Shown here: positions 35,624 through 44,704 of the stretch, one piece after another
How the letters are laid out: the number at the start of each line of letters is the position of its first letter
Position numbering within the stretch: the stretch's first letter is position 1
From: Candidatus Zixiibacteriota bacterium
Lineage (GTDB): Bacteria; Zixibacteria; MSB-5A5; UBA10806; 4484-95
DNA: 48,510 nucleotides
NCBI GenBank assembly: GCA_021159005.1
Contig: JAGGSN010000009.1
Span: forward strand, 1-48,510
Reading direction: 5' to 3'
The notes under the pieces: generated by a model
What the model was told of the DNA's origin: nothing
The model's input: only the letters and a program-made list of their open reading frames with translations
Database searches by the model: none
Program-made: the position numbers and the translations under genes

Positions 35624-37183
35624 TCAATATAAACTACCTAAAGCCTCAATATAGCTTCCGCCGGGTTCAGCCAAAGGGAAAAAATGGGGCGGCGGGTAAT
35701 GCTGAAAACGAGGATCATATCTATATCTCTTAGATACAAAGCCTCGTTCATACGACCCGACACTTGTATGAATTAAACCGCGTTCGCGCATGATTACGCA
35801 GCCATATATTTCTAACTGATCTTTTTCGTTATCTTGGGTATAGCAATTAATCCCGTCAACTGAAATGGTGCCATACAAGCCATCCACAGGATGTCTTATT
35901 CCATCAGGGCAGAGGTTAGCGGCAATCGAATCATAACATTCCTGATAACCGATAGCAGCGAGACCCCCCATAACAATAATAATATCATTACAATTGCGCC
36001 AGATTAGTATATGCTTTTCTGATATTAACCCCAGCACGTTGCGTGAGCTCGGGCTAACTTTCCAGCCTTCAAAATCCTTATAAGCATCCTCATACTTGAT
36101 ATCTTGAGGAATAATAATATCTCCGGAAGCGCCGATAGTAAGCTGTCCGATAAAACCTTCAAGTATTAATGAATCCATTCCTACTCCAGCATTATAATGC
36201 AGGCTGTCTTTCGCCGCAGTTATCCAACATTCCCCATTAATAAATATAGCACCTAAAGCAGGATAAGGTATTGGTTCTATATATCTAATATCACCTTGCT
36301 CAAATGTAAAATGCGTTCTGTTGCGGCTTTGAGCGAAAGAAGAATCATTCGCCCTGCTTCTATATAAAAATCCAGTGGGCTGCAGAGTTAGTTCTGATAC
36401 TGAGTCCGGATGTCCCAACCATAAGCCATATTTTCTAACTGAATCAGCCTGCACGGGTAATTCAATCATAGGCGCTGCAAGTTTATATGGCGGTTCGCCC
36501 ATAAAATGAACGGTATTATCATACGTTACACTTGGCGGTTCAAATCTGGTTGAACATGAAGAAACAGTTTTATAGAATACAGGCCAATATCCCGCTCCGG
36601 ATTCAAATTTAATCTTATCATTTGAATGAACTTTGCCGTCTAATGTATCCGGTCCCCAGAACATTAATAAGCTGTCTGACGGAGGAGGAGGAGGAAATTC
36701 TACTCCATTTTGTCTATAGCTTTGGTTTTCACGCTCAGTTAAATAAAGATAATTAGCAAGCGTTGAATAGGAATCCCCGATTTTTATAAGAGTTACAAAA
36801 TCCTCGCCTACAACCGGGTTGCTGGCGTAGCCATAGCCGTAAATTTCATGGGTTGAGGTATAGCCATAATAAATGCTATCTGCTTCAAGCGGATCAACCA
36901 CATATCTATATTTAAGATTAGGGTCATCAGCATATATTAAAAAATCCGATTCATATTGACCGCCTTGCGGATGATTATATTTGCCTTCAATACCGGCATG
37001 AAACGCAGTATTAAAGCTTCTGCTCTCTTCTATTTCCCAAGTAACTCTCAATCCATAATGTTCAACGAATCTTAAATATGCTGTACCGAGAAGTATGGTA
37101 GCTATTGAAAATACAACCGCCATAACCAATACCGAACCATTATTGCTGGCAAACAAACGGTTTAATAATTTTGGCTTTTTCAT
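35624..37183 (-). CDS. PilX-like minor pilin / DUF4900-type protein
   Basis: A 519-residue protein with a single N-terminal hydrophobic helix (about residues 16-37, GSVLVMAVVFSIATILLGTA) like that of PilX proteins, then a long extracellular beta-rich region. The Phe/Glu prepilin cleavage signature is not clear. Central segments (KVHSNDKIKFESG; AIFINGECWI; GLISEKHILIW) match the beta-solenoid pattern I associate with DUF4900-type proteins found beside pilus genes. It is unusually large for a minor pilin and may form the pilus tip or an adhesin. It lies with two other minor-pilin-like genes. Confidence 0.7.
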   Translation of the reverse strand: MKKPKLLNRLFASNNGSVLVMAVVFSIATILLGTAYLRFVEHYGLRVTWEIEESRSFNTAFHAGIEGKYNHPQGGQYESDFLIYADDPNLKYRYVVDPLEADSIYYGYTSTHEIYGYGYASNPVVGEDFVTLIKIGDSYSTLANYLYLTERENQSYRQNGVEFPPPPPSDSLLMFWGPDTLDGKVHSNDKIKFESGAGYWPVFYKTVSSCSTRFEPPSVTYDNTVHFMGEPPYKLAAPMIELPVQADSVRKYGLWLGHPDSVSELTLQPTGFLYRSRANDSSFAQSRNRTHFTFEQGDIRYIEPIPYPALGAIFINGECWITAAKDSLHYNAGVGMDSLILEGFIGQLTIGASGDIIIPQDIKYEDAYKDFEGWKVSPSSRNVLGLISEKHILIWRNCNDIIIVMGGLAAIGYQECYDSIAANLCPDGIRHPVDGLYGTISVDGINCYTQDNEKDQLEIYGCVIMRERGLIHTSVGSYERGFVSKRYRYDPRFQHYPPPHFFPLAEPGGSYIEALGSLY

Positions 37184-37210
37184 TATTCCTCCCGGGTTAA
37201 AAGTTCTTTA

Positions 37211-37786
37211 TTAGTCGTCTTCATTAAACCTGAATCTGAATTCGGTAATTTCAGCGGTTACGGTATCGCTGTAATCATCCACTAAAACTACCTGGACTTT
37301 TATACCATACGGATATTCTTTTAATTGATTTGTATAGTTATCAAATTCTGTAAATATAACATCGCTTACCTCATACGCCGCCTTATGTGTCGTAAATCTG
37401 TTGTAAGTTCTTCTAGCTTTCACCGGTAATAGCTGAATATTAAATTTATTAAATCCAACCCTTCTATCATCTGCCATCAATGCTTTTTTATTTCTATCAT
37501 AGTAGAAGATAACCTTGCCGATGCCATTATCGTCTGTGTATCTCATAGTTAATTTATTAGTTCTATCAATACTTGGATTTTCGCCCATTCTAATAAATTT
37601 GGATACCTTATAATCTAACACATAAGCCGCTTCTTCATACATGAGATATTTTAGGGATATGCTTTTAAACTGTTCTAGTCCAAAGGCATAAACAGACGCA
37701 AGGCCATATATAGTAATTGAGCCGATTAAAATCGTCGCCATAACTTCAACGAGAGTAAAACCTTTGTTTTTTTTAAGCCTGTTCAT
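37211..37786 (-). CDS. Minor prepilin, PilW-like
   Basis: A 191-residue type IV prepilin. The class III signal is intact: a short basic leader, then G before FTLVEVMATILIGSITIYG with Glu at position 5 of the mature protein. The rest is a variable globular domain. The gene order (pilV-like, pilW-like, pilX-like) supports a priming-complex minor pilin. Confidence 0.82.
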   Translation of the reverse strand: MNRLKKNKGFTLVEVMATILIGSITIYGLASVYAFGLEQFKSISLKYLMYEEAAYVLDYKVSKFIRMGENPSIDRTNKLTMRYTDDNGIGKVIFYYDRNKKALMADDRRVGFNKFNIQLLPVKARRTYNRFTTHKAAYEVSDVIFTEFDNYTNQLKEYPYGIKVQVVLVDDYSDTVTAEITEFRFRFNEDD

Positions 37787-37820
37787 CTAAATATCCTCAC
37801 AAAATTTCATCATTCTTGCG

Positions 37821-38237
37821 CTAATAGTTAGGTATGGTTTTGGGCAAAAATATCTTATAATCCCGGCCTGTTCTTTCCTGCCAGCTAATAGTCAGTTTGA
37901 TTAAATAGCCATAATCCTTCAATTCAACCCCCATTTTATAAGTTCCCGTTAAGCCGGATATTTCATCATCGTCATCCGGGTTAGGAGGTTCCAATTCGAC
38001 TTCGCCGATGAATTCGCCTATGTCAATTGCTTTATTTGTAGCGGCTTCAATTTCTTTGTCGGCGATAAGTTCTCTTGCAAGCACAAAAGCCTTACGGCGG
38101 TGTTCATGTTCTTCAAGCAATACATGACCCTGTACATACATGTAGTATAGAGCGACCGCAGAAATGGATATAATAACTATACCTACCATCATTTCTATTA
38201 ATGTAAATCCACGATTATGTTTGGGCCGCCCTAACAT
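37821..38237 (-). CDS. Minor prepilin, PilV-like
   Basis: A 138-residue prepilin with a short leader LGRPKHNRG and cleavage before FTLIEMMVGIVIISISAVA, Glu5 present. A small C-terminal domain follows, ending FLPKTIPNY. It lies 5 bases after pilT and 34 before the PilW-like gene. The assignment to PilV is by position only. Confidence 0.82.
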   Translation of the reverse strand: MLGRPKHNRGFTLIEMMVGIVIISISAVALYYMYVQGHVLLEEHEHRRKAFVLARELIADKEIEAATNKAIDIGEFIGEVELEPPNPDDDDEISGLTGTYKMGVELKDYGYLIKLTISWQERTGRDYKIFLPKTIPNY

Positions 38238-38242
38238 AATAA

Positions 38243-39376
38243 TTACTCTACAAACAGCCTTGGGTTATCCGCATGCTTGGCAGCCTCCGAGCGATCTATT
38301 TTGCCCTCGGAAACCAGCATGAGCAAATGCTGATCCTTAGACTGCATACCGATTTTGCCGCCAGCCTGAATGGATGAAGGAATTTGAAAGATTTTATCCT
38401 CACGTATCAAATTTCTGACTGCGGTATTGGCAATCATGATTTCGCAGGCGACTACTCGCCCGCCATTTTTACGGGGCATAAGTGTCTGGGAAACAACCGC
38501 CTCGATAGATTCCGCCAGCATCGACCGCACCTGTGATTTTTGTTCGGCGGGAAAAACATCGATAATACGATCGATAGTTTTTGCTGCCGATGATGTATGA
38601 AGTGTTGTTAGTACGAGGTGGCCGGTTTCGGCGGCGGTTAATGCCAGGCTGACAGTTTCCAAGTCGCGCATTTCGCCTACGAGAATAACATCAGGGTCCT
38701 CGCGCAAAGCCGCTCTTAATGAACCGACAAAGGTTTTGGTTGTCGAGCCAAGCTCGCGCTGATTTATCAAGCTATGCAGCGAGGTATGAAAATACTCGAC
38801 CGGATCTTCAATAGTAATGATATGGCATTCTTTATTTTGGTTAATCCAGTCAACCATAGTGGCTAAGGATGTTGTTTTACCCGAGCCGGTGGGACCGGTT
38901 AAAATAACGAGGCCCTTTTCAATCAGGGCAAAACGCTTTAAAACATCCGGCAAGCCTAATTCCTCGAAAGGGCGAATTTCGGCAGGGATTACCCTGTATG
39001 ATCCGGCAATACCGTTTATCTGCTTAAACACATTGCATCTGAATCTGGTGGAGTCTTTGGTTTCTTTTGAAAAATCCACCTCAAAATCCTCATCAAATCT
39101 TTTCTTTAATTCGGAGTTTAACGAATCTAAAATTAAGCGGCGTATATCCTCATTGCCTAAGCCCTCCAATTCTAATTTCAGCATTTTACCATCTACACGA
39201 ATCATTGGCGTTGATCCTTCAGACAAATGAAGGTCGGAGGCGCCCTGCTGGGTGGTAAAAATTAGCAGGTCGTCAATAGTAAGTTGTTTCACGTCCGCAT
39301 CAACCGTACTACTTATTGAATCAAAATTATCCACTTTAGATATCTCGTTTAAAGGTTTAATATTATTCGAAACCAT
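38243..39376 (-). CDS. pilT: Type IV pilus retraction ATPase PilT
   Basis: A hexameric retraction motor of about 377 residues. The N-terminal PAS-like domain contains the PilT hallmark GASDLHLSEGSTPMIRVDG. The catalytic domain has Walker A GPTGSGKTTSLATMVDW, the Asp box IEDPVEYFH, Walker B region PDVILVGEMRDLETV and His box TTLHTSSA. The AIRNLIRE-like sequence AVRNLIRED near the C-terminus is diagnostic of PilT. ATG at 39376 lies inside the last codons of the pilin gene (14-base overlap); a TTG at 39406 is an alternative. Confidence 0.95.
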   Translation of the reverse strand: MVSNNIKPLNEISKVDNFDSISSTVDADVKQLTIDDLLIFTTQQGASDLHLSEGSTPMIRVDGKMLKLELEGLGNEDIRRLILDSLNSELKKRFDEDFEVDFSKETKDSTRFRCNVFKQINGIAGSYRVIPAEIRPFEELGLPDVLKRFALIEKGLVILTGPTGSGKTTSLATMVDWINQNKECHIITIEDPVEYFHTSLHSLINQRELGSTTKTFVGSLRAALREDPDVILVGEMRDLETVSLALTAAETGHLVLTTLHTSSAAKTIDRIIDVFPAEQKSQVRSMLAESIEAVVSQTLMPRKNGGRVVACEIMIANTAVRNLIREDKIFQIPSSIQAGGKIGMQSKDQHLLMLVSEGKIDRSEAAKHADNPRLFVE

Positions 39377-39761
39377 AGCCTTTCCATTGACCGGTTTCAG
39401 AGACAAAAGTAACCTGTTTGCCAGCGCCGCCAGGCATCATGCCTGTTGATGTTGCGGTAATCGAATTGATTCCGCGGCCGCCTACCGTGATTGTGAAATC
39501 CCAGCGACGGGTAACGACCTGGTCGAATTCTAATTTTCTAAGCTGCTCAATCCTGTTTGGCCAACTGTGATTTTCAGCATAATAGACTTTCGATGCCGAC
39601 CAGATAGCGCTGATAGCCTCCTGAGCCTCAGCCGAACGCGCTCCCTCTACATAAGCGGTGTAAATTGGCACCGCTATCGCGAACAAAATTGCAAGCATCA
39701 CAACAACGATAAGAATTTCAACAAGCGTGAATCCCTTAGTGTTCTTAAAAACTCTCGACAT
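39363..39761 (-). CDS. Type IV major pilin-like protein
   Basis: A prepilin of about 132 residues, with leader MSRVFKNTKG and cleavage before FTLVEILIVVVMLAILFAI (Glu5 present). The long N-terminal helix continues through VPIYTAYVEGARSAEAQEAI, and a short C-terminal domain ends WKGYGFE. No disulfide-forming Cys pair is seen. The start at 39761 is chosen because the ATG at 39776 is part of the ribosome site (GGAGG). It is the first gene of the pilus operon, behind a long leader, which suits a highly expressed subunit. A GspG-like pseudopilin is the alternative, but the pilT/pilB/pilM context favours a pilin. Confidence 0.87.
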   Translation of the reverse strand: MSRVFKNTKGFTLVEILIVVVMLAILFAIAVPIYTAYVEGARSAEAQEAISAIWSASKVYYAENHSWPNRIEQLRKLEFDQVVTRRWDFTITVGGRGINSITATSTGMMPGGAGKQVTFVSETGQWKGYGFE

Positions 39762-39847
39762 AAACAAAACCTCCAAATAACATTATAATTTTTATTTTAC
39801 TTTCATTTTACACACAAAATCGCTAAACATTTCTATGCTTTTCAAGC

Positions 39848-40222: not shown

Positions 40223-41542
40223 TTATTTGCTGCTTTTTTCTAACTTATCATATAGTTTTGCGATTTTTTCAGTTAATCCCTTTAGATGGTGTTCTACGTT
40301 TTCCAGTTTTTCTTCTAAATAATCAATACTATCACCAGCCTGAAAATTATTCTGATTTTTTAGCTCTTCTAAGTATTCTTTAAATTCAACGAGGCCTTCC
40401 TCGAAATTTTCAGTCATATCGAGCCAGATATCGTCATTCTTATTGAACATCTTATGATTATCATAATATTGTTTATAGCTGCCGACCATAGCCTCGCCTA
40501 AGGTTGCTATAATGGTCATGCTGGAACCATCACGAATGATTTCAAGTTTAATTACATCTCCCGGCATATATGATCTTATTAACTCGTAAAGATGGTTGGT
40601 ACCCTCAATTAGCGTATTCTCTACTTTGACAATAATATCGTTTTTCAAAAGGCCGGCTCTATTCGCCGGTGAGTCGCTGATTATTTCCGTTACCAGCACA
40701 CCACCATCCAAATCATTTTTTTGCATAATTTTTTTAGGCAGTTCTGTTTGCGTTATACCAAGAAAACCATGTTTAACCTTGCCGAATTTTTTCAGTTGGT
40801 CAACAATTCGGTTTAGTTTATCGATACCAAGGGCTAAACTGGCGCTGTTTGACTGCATATTGATGCCCTGATTCATATAAGCAAACGATTCGGCGGGGTA
40901 AGAATCTTTGATGTTCATCTTCAAGTGATTTTCATAAGGTGGTGTTAATAAGACGGATTCGGCGGTTTGCGCAACCAACATGCCGATTAGCTCCCCTTTG
41001 GCATTAAACACGGCACCGCCGGTATTGCCGGGTCCGGACTGCGCCGATAACTGCATCAAGCCATCATCGGTGATACCAGAAAACATGCCGAAATTTACGG
41101 CTGTGGGCATATCATACGAATTGCCTATGACTGTAACCCAGGCGCCATCCTGAAGTTTGCCGGGGTCGCCGAATTTTGGCGTTTGACGTTCGACCGATTC
41201 GATTTTCAGCAAAGCCGCCCCCGATTCGGGGTCGATACCTACAATTTCCGCTGGGTAGATGTCGCCATCTTTAAATCTAACGATGATTTTATCATTGGAA
41301 TCGGCAACCGAGGATGTTGTTAGAATATAGCCATCCCGGTCAATAAGGATGCCAGACCCTACAAATATCTCATTATAATGATAATCCTCCGCCTCGACAG
41401 TAACTATATATGATTCGGCTTTTTTAACGAGAGCGGTAATTTCCTTATTGATGCTCTCGAGTATGCCCGCCTCCGCTGTAATAGATGTTGTCAGTAATAA
41501 TGTCAGGGCAAAAAATAATAAAACATTAGCGATTCTTTTCAT
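40223..41542 (-). CDS. HtrA/DegP-like PDZ protein with all catalytic residues replaced (pseudoprotease)
   Basis: A 439-residue exported protein. It has a signal peptide (1-23), a trypsin-like fold (about 40-215), a PDZ domain (about 250-345, LGITQ...GGVLVTEIISDSPANRAGLLKNDII) and a coiled-coil tail (about 385-439). Compared with the DegP pattern, the His of LTNNHV is Ser78 in LTTSSV, the Asp of QSDIALL is Gly108 in ESGAALL, and the Ser of GNSGG is Thr174 in GNTGG. The fold-defining glycines remain, so it is probably a folded, non-proteolytic chaperone or peptide sensor. It lies 9 bases after the anti-sigma factor gene in an ECF sigma operon, a setting reminiscent of DegS/RseA but without proteolysis. 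Confidence 0.88.
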   Translation of the reverse strand: MKRIANVLLFFALTLLLTTSITAEAGILESINKEITALVKKAESYIVTVEAEDYHYNEIFVGSGILIDRDGYILTTSSVADSNDKIIVRFKDGDIYPAEIVGIDPESGAALLKIESVERQTPKFGDPGKLQDGAWVTVIGNSYDMPTAVNFGMFSGITDDGLMQLSAQSGPGNTGGAVFNAKGELIGMLVAQTAESVLLTPPYENHLKMNIKDSYPAESFAYMNQGINMQSNSASLALGIDKLNRIVDQLKKFGKVKHGFLGITQTELPKKIMQKNDLDGGVLVTEIISDSPANRAGLLKNDIIVKVENTLIEGTNHLYELIRSYMPGDVIKLEIIRDGSSMTIIATLGEAMVGSYKQYYDNHKMFNKNDDIWLDMTENFEEGLVEFKEYLEELKNQNNFQAGDSIDYLEEKLENVEHHLKGLTEKIAKLYDKLEKSSK

Positions 41543-41551
41543 TCAACCTCT

Positions 41552-42115
41552 CTAAAAAATTCTTTTATCTTTATTATCTCTCTTTATTCCGACAGGCTTA
41601 ACATAATGTTTGGGCGGGGTAATTGAATCCCGGCTAATGGAATCAGCTGTCGGGCTTTCGGTTAGAACCATATCGCGCTTTAGAGCCTCATCGGAAACAG
41701 GCACGCCCCTTTTTATTTTGGCGGAATCAGTTGTAGCGGCGGTTTCAATCTGTGAGTCGTTTCCGGCAATAGGAACCGGCAGTGTTGAGACTCCGGGGCT
41801 AATCAGATAGAAAGTGAAGCTGGCGGCGACAACAAAGGCGGCGCCGGAAAGAGACAGCCGATAGCGCCATTTGTGCCAGGCAAGGCCGATGTTATTTTGC
41901 TGGTTAATCGCGCACATCAATCGGCTCGTGAAATGTGGTCCGGGTGTAACCTGCTCAAGCTTGCCGGCAGTTTGAATGATTGCTTTAATGTCCGCCAGCT
42001 TTTGCCGGCATACGCTGCATGCCTTGAGATGCGCCTCGAACCCATCGGTTTCTTTGGGTGAGAGGCCGCCCTCAATATAGGCAGATAGCAGGCGGGAAGC
42101 CTTTCGACAGTTCAT
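41552..42115 (-). CDS. Zinc-binding (ZAS) transmembrane anti-sigma factor
   Basis: A 187-residue anti-sigma factor. The N-terminal zinc domain has C3, then H29-x3-C33-x2-C36 (HLKACSVC), the ZAS pattern that clamps ECF sigma factors. One transmembrane helix (about residues 88-106) divides the cytoplasmic domain from a periplasmic tail of about 75 residues rich in Ser, Thr and Pro. The gene overlaps the sigma factor gene end by 44 bases, the usual cognate arrangement. Release of the sigma factor would need proteolysis or a conformational signal from outside. Confidence 0.9.
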   Translation of the reverse strand: MNCRKASRLLSAYIEGGLSPKETDGFEAHLKACSVCRQKLADIKAIIQTAGKLEQVTPGPHFTSRLMCAINQQNNIGLAWHKWRYRLSLSGAAFVVAASFTFYLISPGVSTLPVPIAGNDSQIETAATTDSAKIKRGVPVSDEALKRDMVLTESPTADSISRDSITPPKHYVKPVGIKRDNKDKRIF

Positions 42116-42668
42116 AATTTAACTCCTTATAGGGTAATAGTTTCTCTCTAAGCATAGTGCGCGCTCTATTGATGCGCGACTTGACTGTGCCAACCGGCAC
42201 TCGCATAATCTCGGCGATTTCGCTGTATGGCAGACGGTCGATATCGCAAAGAACGAACGCTGTGCGGTATTCATCCGGTAAACCTTTAATCGCTTTATCT
42301 AAAAGCGGTTTCAGCTTTTGCGGCTCAAGGTTTTTCTCACCGGGGAGTTCAATATCGGATTCTTCTTTAAGGAATTCGAGACTGATAAATTTCCTGAGTT
42401 TGCGTTTGCGAAGTTCGGAACGGCACAGGTTTAGGGCAATGGTATAAACCCATGTCGATAATGCGTAATCGGGACTGTAGTTTTTTCGTTGGTTATAGAC
42501 TCGCAGGAATGTTTCCTGAAGGATATCCTCGGCCATTTCTTTTTCGGAAATGATGCGAAAGACGAAATTAAACAGGCGGTTTTTATAGCGATCCACAAAC
42601 ATCGCAAACGCCCGTTCGTTGTCATCGGCAACTTTGGCAAACAACTCTTTATCTGTTAGTTTTTCCAA
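42072..42668 (-). CDS. ECF RNA polymerase sigma factor, RpoE-like
   Basis: A 198-residue group 4 sigma factor. Region 2 (about 22-90) contains the LFNFVFRIISEKEMAEDILQ core and ETFLRVYNQR; region 4 (about 130-185) contains the helix-turn-helix RLPYSEIAEIMRVPVGTVKS followed by RINRAR. Start is TTG at 42668 with GAGAGG upstream. It is followed by its anti-sigma factor and the HtrA-like protein, indicating an envelope-stress regulon. The upstream promoter-like element has an ECF-like GGAACT -35, so autoregulation is plausible. Confidence 0.93.
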   Translation of the reverse strand: MEKLTDKELFAKVADDNERAFAMFVDRYKNRLFNFVFRIISEKEMAEDILQETFLRVYNQRKNYSPDYALSTWVYTIALNLCRSELRKRKLRKFISLEFLKEESDIELPGEKNLEPQKLKPLLDKAIKGLPDEYRTAFVLCDIDRLPYSEIAEIMRVPVGTVKSRINRARTMLREKLLPYKELNYELSKGFPPAICLY

Positions 42669-42902: not shown

Positions 42903-44704
42903 ATGACCACAATAAAAGGCAGGGCATATCTGATATGTCTTCTGCTAATAATAGTTAGCGGCATAACCCAAGCCGACTACCACTACGCCAGCCATGACGG
43001 CTCTAACGAGTACCCCTACACCAGTTGGGATACGGCGGCGGACAGCATACAGGATGCCATAGACGCGGCTGAATCGTATGATACGGTGATATTGGCGTTG
43101 GTGAGTGGTATGAGCTTATACGCATGGATGCGGAAGACTCCTGTATGACCTTCATAGGCAGCGGCTGGGACTCGACACTTATATGGACCGACCAGCCAAC
43201 CTGGCTTTTTATGAGAGCAAGAAATACATCGCTAAGGGATATATGCTTTGAGCATTTAGCGACTCAAAGCGCTGTGATTCTTGCTTTTACGCTTTTTGGC
43301 CCGCCAACTGACTTATATGTCAATCATTGCAAATTCAAAGGCACATGCCATAGCTGCGCGATTTTAGGAGATGCCAATGCCACCGAAATAATCGAGAACT
43401 GTGTTTTTGATTCTTTGAGCGCTTATGATAAATCTTTTCATGGCCCGTTAGGTGTGTTTCGAAATAATATATGCGCGCCCACATCTCATGTACTTACAAG
43501 CTTATTTATAGATTCAGATAAGATAGTTGTAGAGAATAACTTTTTCTACAATGTAAGTCGATGGGGAGGCAATAGGTTATTATGCAATGCTGAACATATC
43601 GATACCTTGATTATGCAGAATAACATCTGTTTGTATTTCGGTGAAACGGCTATGATAGAGAACGTATCAAGAGGCAGCAAGTTTGCTTATAATATTGTCA
43701 ATAGCCATAGACCGGGATTATCATTGGCAAAATACTCTAACGATTCCACCGATTATATTGATATTTATGGCAATGTATTTATGAATATTGAAAATGGAAC
43801 GGCAATAGATATATATCCATATTCTCCATATTATGAGTATGCCTCGATAAGATACAACTGTTTCTGGAATAACGGTATTGATATTTATTCCGAATCCCCA
43901 GCTCAATATGATTCCATCGGTAATATATTTGTTGAGCCTATGTTTATCAGCAGCAATGATTACCATTTACAGGCATTCTCACCCTGCATAAACGCCGGTG
44001 ATCCTGAGATACTTGATTTAGACAGCACCCGCTCTGATATCGGAATTTATGGCGGTCCCCTTGGCGAGGTTTATGAATATCAAGACCTGCCTCCGGGAAT
44101 ACCCGACAGTCTTTATGGTTCTATTGCAAATGATACTATTACTGTTCAATGGCTTTACAATACCGAGGCTGATTTCAACTATTATTTATTATATAGAGAT
44201 ACCGTTTCCGGTTTTGAACCATCGGTATTTAATTTAATAGCTGAACCGGAGACATCGTTATACATAGATACTGATTTTGAACACACTAATAATTACTATT
44301 ACAGGATATCGGCAATTGACAACCAGGATAACGTATCTGATTATTCAGAGGAATTAGCTGTGATTTTGACCGATATCAGGGATTTATTCGGTTCTGATGT
44401 TCCTCGTTTGACTTCAATCATCGGCAATTATCCTAATCCGTTTAATTCGCAGACTATTATAAGATACAACATCGGCAATATCGGTCCGATGCCGGTTGAT
44501 GTTAAGATAGAGATATATGATTTACTTGGGCGTGTTGTAAGAATTTTAACAGAGAATAATAGGTATCCCGGCGAGCAGGAGGTAGTCTGGGATGGCAGAG
44601 ACAATCAGGGAGGCGAACTATCCAGCGGAGTATATTTTGTAAAGATTAAACAATGGGAGGGACTTATCGAAAGCAGACCGAGAAAGATCGTTTTACTGAA
44701 GTGA
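42903..44704 (+). pseudogene. Secreted beta-helix / Fn3 / sorting-domain protein, frameshifted near 43088
   Basis: Two frames join into one protein of about 600 residues. The first gives a signal peptide (about 1-24, ending TQA) and DSIQDAIDAAESYDTV. Adding one base near 43088 lets it continue in the second frame as IGVGEWYELIRMDAEDS and on to 44704. The middle is a right-handed beta-helix (about 60-390), then an Fn3-like domain (about 395-490), then a C-terminal domain with NYPNPFNSQTIIRY and DLLGRVVR...GVYFVKI, the FlgD/T9SS type A sorting pattern. The protein is probably secreted and surface-attached through a type IX-like system. The missing base is either a real mutation or an assembly error; everything downstream is otherwise intact. 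Confidence 0.8.

Follow-up and report, generated by a model that had tools for sequence, protein, structure and literature searches.

Introduction

The closest described systems to the locus analysed here are the envelope-stress circuits DegS-RseA-RseB-RpoE of E. coli and AlgW-MucA-MucB-AlgU, together with MucD, of Pseudomonas, in which an ECF sigma factor and a membrane anti-sigma factor are likewise combined with an HtrA-type PDZ protein. The gene order sigma, anti-sigma, HtrA is that of the mycobacterial SigE-RseA-HtrA operon (Rv1221-Rv1223), whose HtrA (Rv1223) is considered an active serine protease. In the textbook example, DegS signalling, a PDZ domain turns on the protease that goes on to destroy the anti-sigma factor. 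DegS and AlgW, both active, make the site-1 cut once the tails of outer-membrane proteins (OMPs) or of MucE trigger them, and their PDZ domains read aromatic C-termini: that of DegS binds YxF tails, and that of AlgW binds the WVF tail of MucE (PMC8545111). RseA and MucA are shielded by RseB and MucB (PMC8545111), guards that are not themselves HtrAs.

Members of the HtrA family with a degenerate catalytic site are known from magnetosomes. MamO and inactive copies of MamE carry such sites, including Thr in place of Ser, and are retained for non-catalytic roles; degenerate magnetosome HtrAs arose more than once (PMC4794232). MamO is encoded in the magnetosome island, binds metal and activates MamE, keeps its His116 and Asp149, and is not part of a sigma/anti-sigma operon. 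Both HtrA pseudoproteases (MamO) and HtrAs acting in sigma/anti-sigma circuits (DegS, AlgW, MucD) are thus already known. Here we analysed a 48,510-nucleotide stretch of DNA (the window) from a genome of Candidatus Zixiibacteriota, in which an HtrA homologue devoid of its catalytic triad is the third gene of an ECF sigma/anti-sigma operon. Our non-exhaustive search of the open-access literature returned no account of a conserved ECF module whose third gene encodes a dead HtrA, or of an anti-sigma factor whose C-terminus is a PDZ ligand matching such an HtrA.

A triad-less HtrA encoded in an ECF sigma/anti-sigma operon

The operon runs in the order ECF sigma factor, zinc-finger membrane anti-sigma factor, HtrA (Table 1). 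The sigma factor contains Sigma70 regions 2 and 4 only and is adjacent to a membrane zinc-finger anti-sigma factor, the arrangement of an ECF sigma factor with a class I anti-sigma factor. The sigma and anti-sigma genes overlap, and the anti-sigma gene lies 9 bases upstream of the HtrA gene. Pfam and gene order, in the window and phylum-wide, bear out the sequence-only reading, which had placed an HtrA homologue in such an operon. The gene order is the same as in the mycobacterial operon, but the window protein differs from the presumably proteolytic Rv1223, structures of which were among the matches of our searches.

Table 1. Features of the operon and of its products, with positions in the window.
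Feature	Position	Strand	Basis
Pseudoprotease HtrA/PDZ gene, 439 aa	40223..41542	minus	ORF and translation; Pfam; AlphaFold
Signal-peptide-like N-terminus, residues 1-25 (...ITAEA, then G)	41468..41542	minus	hydrophobic stretch and A-x-A-like site
Protease-fold domain, presumed catalytically dead, residues 45-195	40958..41410	minus	Pfam, alignment, AlphaFold
Ser78 codon, catalytic His position	41309..41311	minus	alignment
Gly108 codon, catalytic Asp position	41219..41221	minus	alignment
Thr174 codon, catalytic Ser position (GNTGG)	41021..41023	minus	alignment
PDZ domain, residues 255-345, GFLG carboxylate-binding-type loop (259-262)	40508..40780	minus	Pfam
C-terminal helical, coiled-coil-like tail, residues 354-438	40229..40483	minus	predicted helices
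ECF sigma factor, 198 aa, first gene of operon	42072..42668	minus	Pfam Sigma70_r2 and r4_2; TIGR02937
Membrane anti-sigma factor, 187 aa: zf-HC2, one TM helix, periplasmic tail of ~80 residues	41552..42115	minus	Pfam zf-HC2, E 2.1e-11
Anti-sigma transmembrane segment, residues ~88-107	41795..41854	minus	hydropathy read from sequence; same place in relatives
Proposed PDZ ligand, Arg-Ile-Phe at the anti-sigma C-terminus (...KDKRIF)	41555..41563	minus	terminal F/Y conservation

The HtrA reading frame starts with ATG and is uninterrupted by stops. Pfam detected Trypsin_2 (E 7.7e-24, residues 62-188) followed by PDZ_2 (E 5.4e-13, residues 274-344), the domain order of the HtrA (S1C) family, and an AlphaFold model built with 48 relatives as input (mean pLDDT 85.8) had the HtrA fold, with DegP, DegQ, MucD and DegS as the best PDB matches in Foldseek. 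The protein scored below the cut-offs of the named subfamilies: 132 bits versus the curated 423 for the DegS equivalog TIGR02038, 174 versus 416 for the DegP/Do subfamily TIGR02037 (with only one PDZ stretch versus the expected two), and 29 versus 800 for the MamO model NF040961. Two terminal features recur among its relatives: most have the Leu-rich C-terminal tail, and, by sequence inspection, a hydrophobic N-terminal stretch ending in an A-x-A-like site is also seen in relatives. The N-terminus may alternatively be an uncleaved anchor, since AlphaFold modelled residues 2-42 as one helix.

Aligned to DegP, MucD and other solved HtrAs, the window protein has Ser78, Gly108 and Thr174 at the positions of the catalytic His, Asp and Ser, and it retains the scaffold motifs GSG (62-64), GYILT (71-75) and GNTGG (172-176), as had been read from the sequence alone. 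It therefore lacks the His-Asp-Ser triad of HtrA enzymes. Three further HtrA genes of the same genome, all outside the sigma/anti-sigma operon, encode His-Asp-Ser.

Triad loss and its conservation in Zixiibacteriota

Of 129 genomes, 113 yielded the orthologous sigma gene, and we scored the 110 Zixiibacteriota operons with a complete anti-sigma gene. An HtrA gene follows the anti-sigma gene in 94 of these, including one genome (G093, L167) in which it lies in an overlapping frame, and is absent in 16; it is missing from G002, G008, family f6 and most of family f19. Querying the genome contigs with the single window protein matched no relative, whereas a three-row alignment did. The His-Asp-Ser triad was absent from 87 of the 90 operonic HtrAs longer than 300 aa and present in all 16 non-operonic HtrAs examined. 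A strain-specific loss is thereby ruled out.

The sequence-only reading had spoken of a coordinated loss of the three residues. The relatives point instead to a piecemeal one, in which His is gone nearly everywhere, Asp often, and Ser variably, being kept in many. Among the 90 proteins, 44 have Ser at position 78 and 4 still have His (the replacements of His, 86 in all, are very varied). Position 108 holds Gly in 41, Asn in 21 and Asp in 13. At position 174, 27 proteins have Ser and 5 have Thr; most of the others carry Ile, Val, Leu or Ala there, with Ile, Val or Leu in most members of the large families f9 and f18. Thr174 occurs in the lineage of the window and in a few others (L021, L022 and L061 among them) and is a late detail of these lineages. 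When same-operon relatives were checked for intact triads, none was found in the same family or order, but f7 (L028, L030, L035), a distantly related family within the class, has all three residues, the only operonic HtrAs of the phylum to do so.

The triad-less HtrAs are under purifying selection: dN/dS of the HtrA gene was 0.06-0.22 in 12 species pairs, similar to or below that of the anti-sigma factor. Gly175, Gly262 (in the PDZ loop), Pro292 and Asp302 are invariant in all 87 triad-less proteins, in which the three triad positions vary about as much as the median column. Chance or assembly error can be excluded, because 87 of 90 proteins lack the triad, dN/dS is this low and the three paralogues of the same genome are intact. 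Phylum-wide triad loss, purifying selection and a conserved fold together support the retained, non-proteolytic function that had been proposed at the outset.

In a tree computed without the three triad columns, the operonic HtrAs stood apart from the paralogues (SH-aLRT 97); all trees were quick-search trees, some with long branches. Family f7 grouped with the triad-less family f12 in the HtrA tree and also in the sigma factor tree, and because the two agree, the f7 HtrA was probably inherited with its operon. A single clade holding all triad-less proteins, with f7 outside, was disfavoured and not rejected (AU p 0.07). The triad may have been lost several times, or lost once and recovered in f7.

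A search of 386 genomes returned 12 strong matches outside Zixiibacteriota. Eleven of them are sigma/anti-sigma/HtrA operons and none of the 11 encodes the triad, a frequency biased by the way in which the matches were chosen, namely for their resemblance to triad-less proteins. In 8 of the 11, Phe or Tyr is the last anti-sigma residue. The twelfth is an ordinary HtrA with His-Asp-Ser and no sigma/anti-sigma operon.

Some operonic HtrAs depart from the usual length of 390-460 aa: those of L076 and L077 (f11) have 665 and 712 aa. In the single-contig genome G007 (L081, L084) the gene is apparently split into two parts 2.1 Mb apart (C1:77955-78410 and 2187363-2188166), by misassembly or rearrangement; the first part contains a masked stretch.

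An aromatic C-terminus of the anti-sigma factor accompanies the HtrA gene

The anti-sigma factor terminates in Phe or Tyr in 90 of the 94 operons with an HtrA gene versus 6 of the 16 without, where the residue kept is Tyr. In the first 52 anti-sigma sequences aligned, 50 end in Phe or Tyr, usually preceded by Val or Ile, and the entropy of the terminal position is 1.14 bits versus 2.7-3.8 bits for the preceding 29. Twenty other zf-HC2 anti-sigma factors encoded in these genomes, all but one of them adjoining an ECF sigma gene, were compared, and none ends in Phe or Tyr. Each of the two residues is encoded by both of its codons, and the aromatic residue is still found in 22 of 25 cases where the HtrA start is at least 20 bases downstream. 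The constraint therefore acts on the protein, and a nucleotide-level cause such as a ribosome site is ruled out. This conserved residue, a C-terminus of the type bound by HtrA PDZ domains, supports the earlier idea of a PDZ domain acting on the anti-sigma factor.

In genome G002 (L104), from the family of the window, the sigma and anti-sigma genes and the pilin and PilT genes downstream match those of the window; the HtrA gene is absent, and the anti-sigma factor has lost its aromatic end (...VDQSH). When kinship was allowed for, the association of HtrA loss with tail loss was not significant (4-5 independent losses, about 2 pairs concordant and almost none opposite, median p 0.5); with so few independent losses the test is underpowered. 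Three f18 loci (L074, L094, L096) have an HtrA gene and an anti-sigma factor ending in Pro (LVIP or LISP), the other f18 proteins ending in Tyr.

The periplasmic tail of the anti-sigma factor was predicted mostly with low confidence, as disordered, and should therefore be reachable. Candidate competitors for the PDZ domain also exist, since six Omp85-type outer-membrane proteins of the genome end in Phe or Tyr (GKGF, YAF, YDY, LHF, TGF and NY). A second conserved motif, [YF][VI]xP, lies 13-17 residues before the anti-sigma C-terminus (about 41597-41611 in the window); it reads YRVRPVIRxY in f9 and YIQQ in G002, which lost the HtrA, and it may be a further contact with the dead HtrA.

A possible role for the dead HtrA

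We put at roughly 55% the probability that the dead HtrA is a dedicated periplasmic partner of the anti-sigma factor, which grips its tail through the PDZ domain and guards it against proteolysis until OMP tails compete. The PDZ domain would grip the C-terminal Phe or Tyr, and the dead protease body would cap the disordered periplasmic tail; site-1 and site-2 proteolysis could then not begin, and the sigma factor would remain bound. Misfolded outer-membrane proteins would compete for the PDZ pocket with their own C-terminal aromatic peptides, upon which the anti-sigma factor would be let go and degraded, and the sigma factor freed. The RseP homologue encoded in the genome is in keeping with this reading. 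We favour the shielding direction by analogy with RseB and MucB, which do the same for RseA and MucA. The HtrA would then be an RseB-like guard on a DegS-like scaffold, with the ligand of DegS transferred to the anti-sigma factor, and it is probably a sensor that holds a regulator rather than a scissor. The aromatic ligand is of the type read by DegS and AlgW; unlike in their circuits, it stands on the anti-sigma factor itself, and unlike DegS and AlgW the window protein has no triad.

Counting against this reading are the operonic HtrA of f7, which has its full triad and may cut in its own circuit, the terminal Tyr kept in six of the 16 HtrA-less operons, the three f18 anti-sigma factors that end in Pro beside an HtrA gene, and the lack of significance of the link between HtrA loss and tail loss once kinship is allowed for. 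At the same time, f7 supplies a naturally active counterpart with which the pseudoprotease can be compared. A broader proposal, to which we would give somewhat less than even odds, is that a three-gene envelope-stress module is widespread, occurring in Zixiibacteriota and in at least 11 genomes of other phyla. Its dead HtrA would recognise the C-terminus of the partner anti-sigma factor as a PDZ ligand, and unfolded OMPs would activate the sigma factor by competing for the pocket and not by switching on a protease. Binding alone is apparently what the HtrA scaffold was retained for here, in the majority of the families sampled in the phylum as well as in other phyla, the PDZ ligand being part of the anti-sigma factor. 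If true, this would show a protease turning into a pure receptor and define a new type of ECF sigma control; with the intact triad of f7 still present in the same operon, it would also open the evolution of bacterial pseudoproteases to test.

The same PDZ and tail evidence fits equally well with the opposite effect, in which the dead HtrA hands the anti-sigma tail to an active protease, for example in mixed trimers with an intact paralogue, and so promotes release of the sigma factor. The genome does encode three HtrAs with intact triads, and a precedent exists in MamO, a dead HtrA that activates MamE-dependent proteolysis (PMC4794232). We nevertheless hold this, the main rival reading, to be unlikely, given the separation of the operonic proteins from the paralogues in the tree and the helical C-terminal tail that takes the place of PDZ2. 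A smaller likelihood attaches to a reading in which a different PDZ protein, either RseP or an active HtrA, recognises the aromatic end and the dead HtrA serves only as a co-regulated chaperone of envelope proteins. Protease-dead HtrA variants such as those of DegP can act as chaperones, an RseP homologue is encoded in the genome, and the Tyr retained in HtrA-less operons would fit; yet the 20 other anti-sigma factors lack an aromatic end despite the same RseP and HtrAs, and in G002 the HtrA and the aromatic tail are missing together.

That the protein is still a protease by unusual chemistry, using Thr174 or another residue as nucleophile, seems very improbable to us. Ser or Thr does occupy position 174 in 32 of the 90 operonic proteins, with glycines 172, 175 and 176 mostly kept, but His is gone almost throughout, the nucleophile position of f9 and f18 is mostly aliphatic, the alignment shows no conserved alternative base, and the corresponding Thr of MamO is dispensable (PMC4794232). 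As for a decaying relic or an assembly error, the absence of the gene from several genomes might suggest it, but the 12 pairs show purifying selection, the frame is full-length in many independent genomes, and operons of this kind recur in other phyla; these observations refute it for the family and leave it next to no probability.

Neighbouring genes

Just downstream of the operon, at 35624-39776 on the minus strand, lie type IV pilus-like genes, for three pilin-like proteins with N-methylation motifs and a PilT-like ATPase; pilin and PilT genes also adjoin the operon in G002. On the other side, at 43124-44704 on the plus strand, a divergent gene encodes a secreted protein with a C-terminal sorting domain like FlgD_ig or Por_Secre_tail. 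In other Zixiibacteriota families the operon is followed by a gene for a protein of about 200-235 aa with the motif SRPG...ERE...QL.SH..GALN, carboxymuconolactone-decarboxylase-like by eye, which was seen at L101, L102, L103, L106 and other f9 loci and at L088, L089, L097 and L099 (f6, f19). Where the HtrA gene is missing, it stands directly after the anti-sigma gene.
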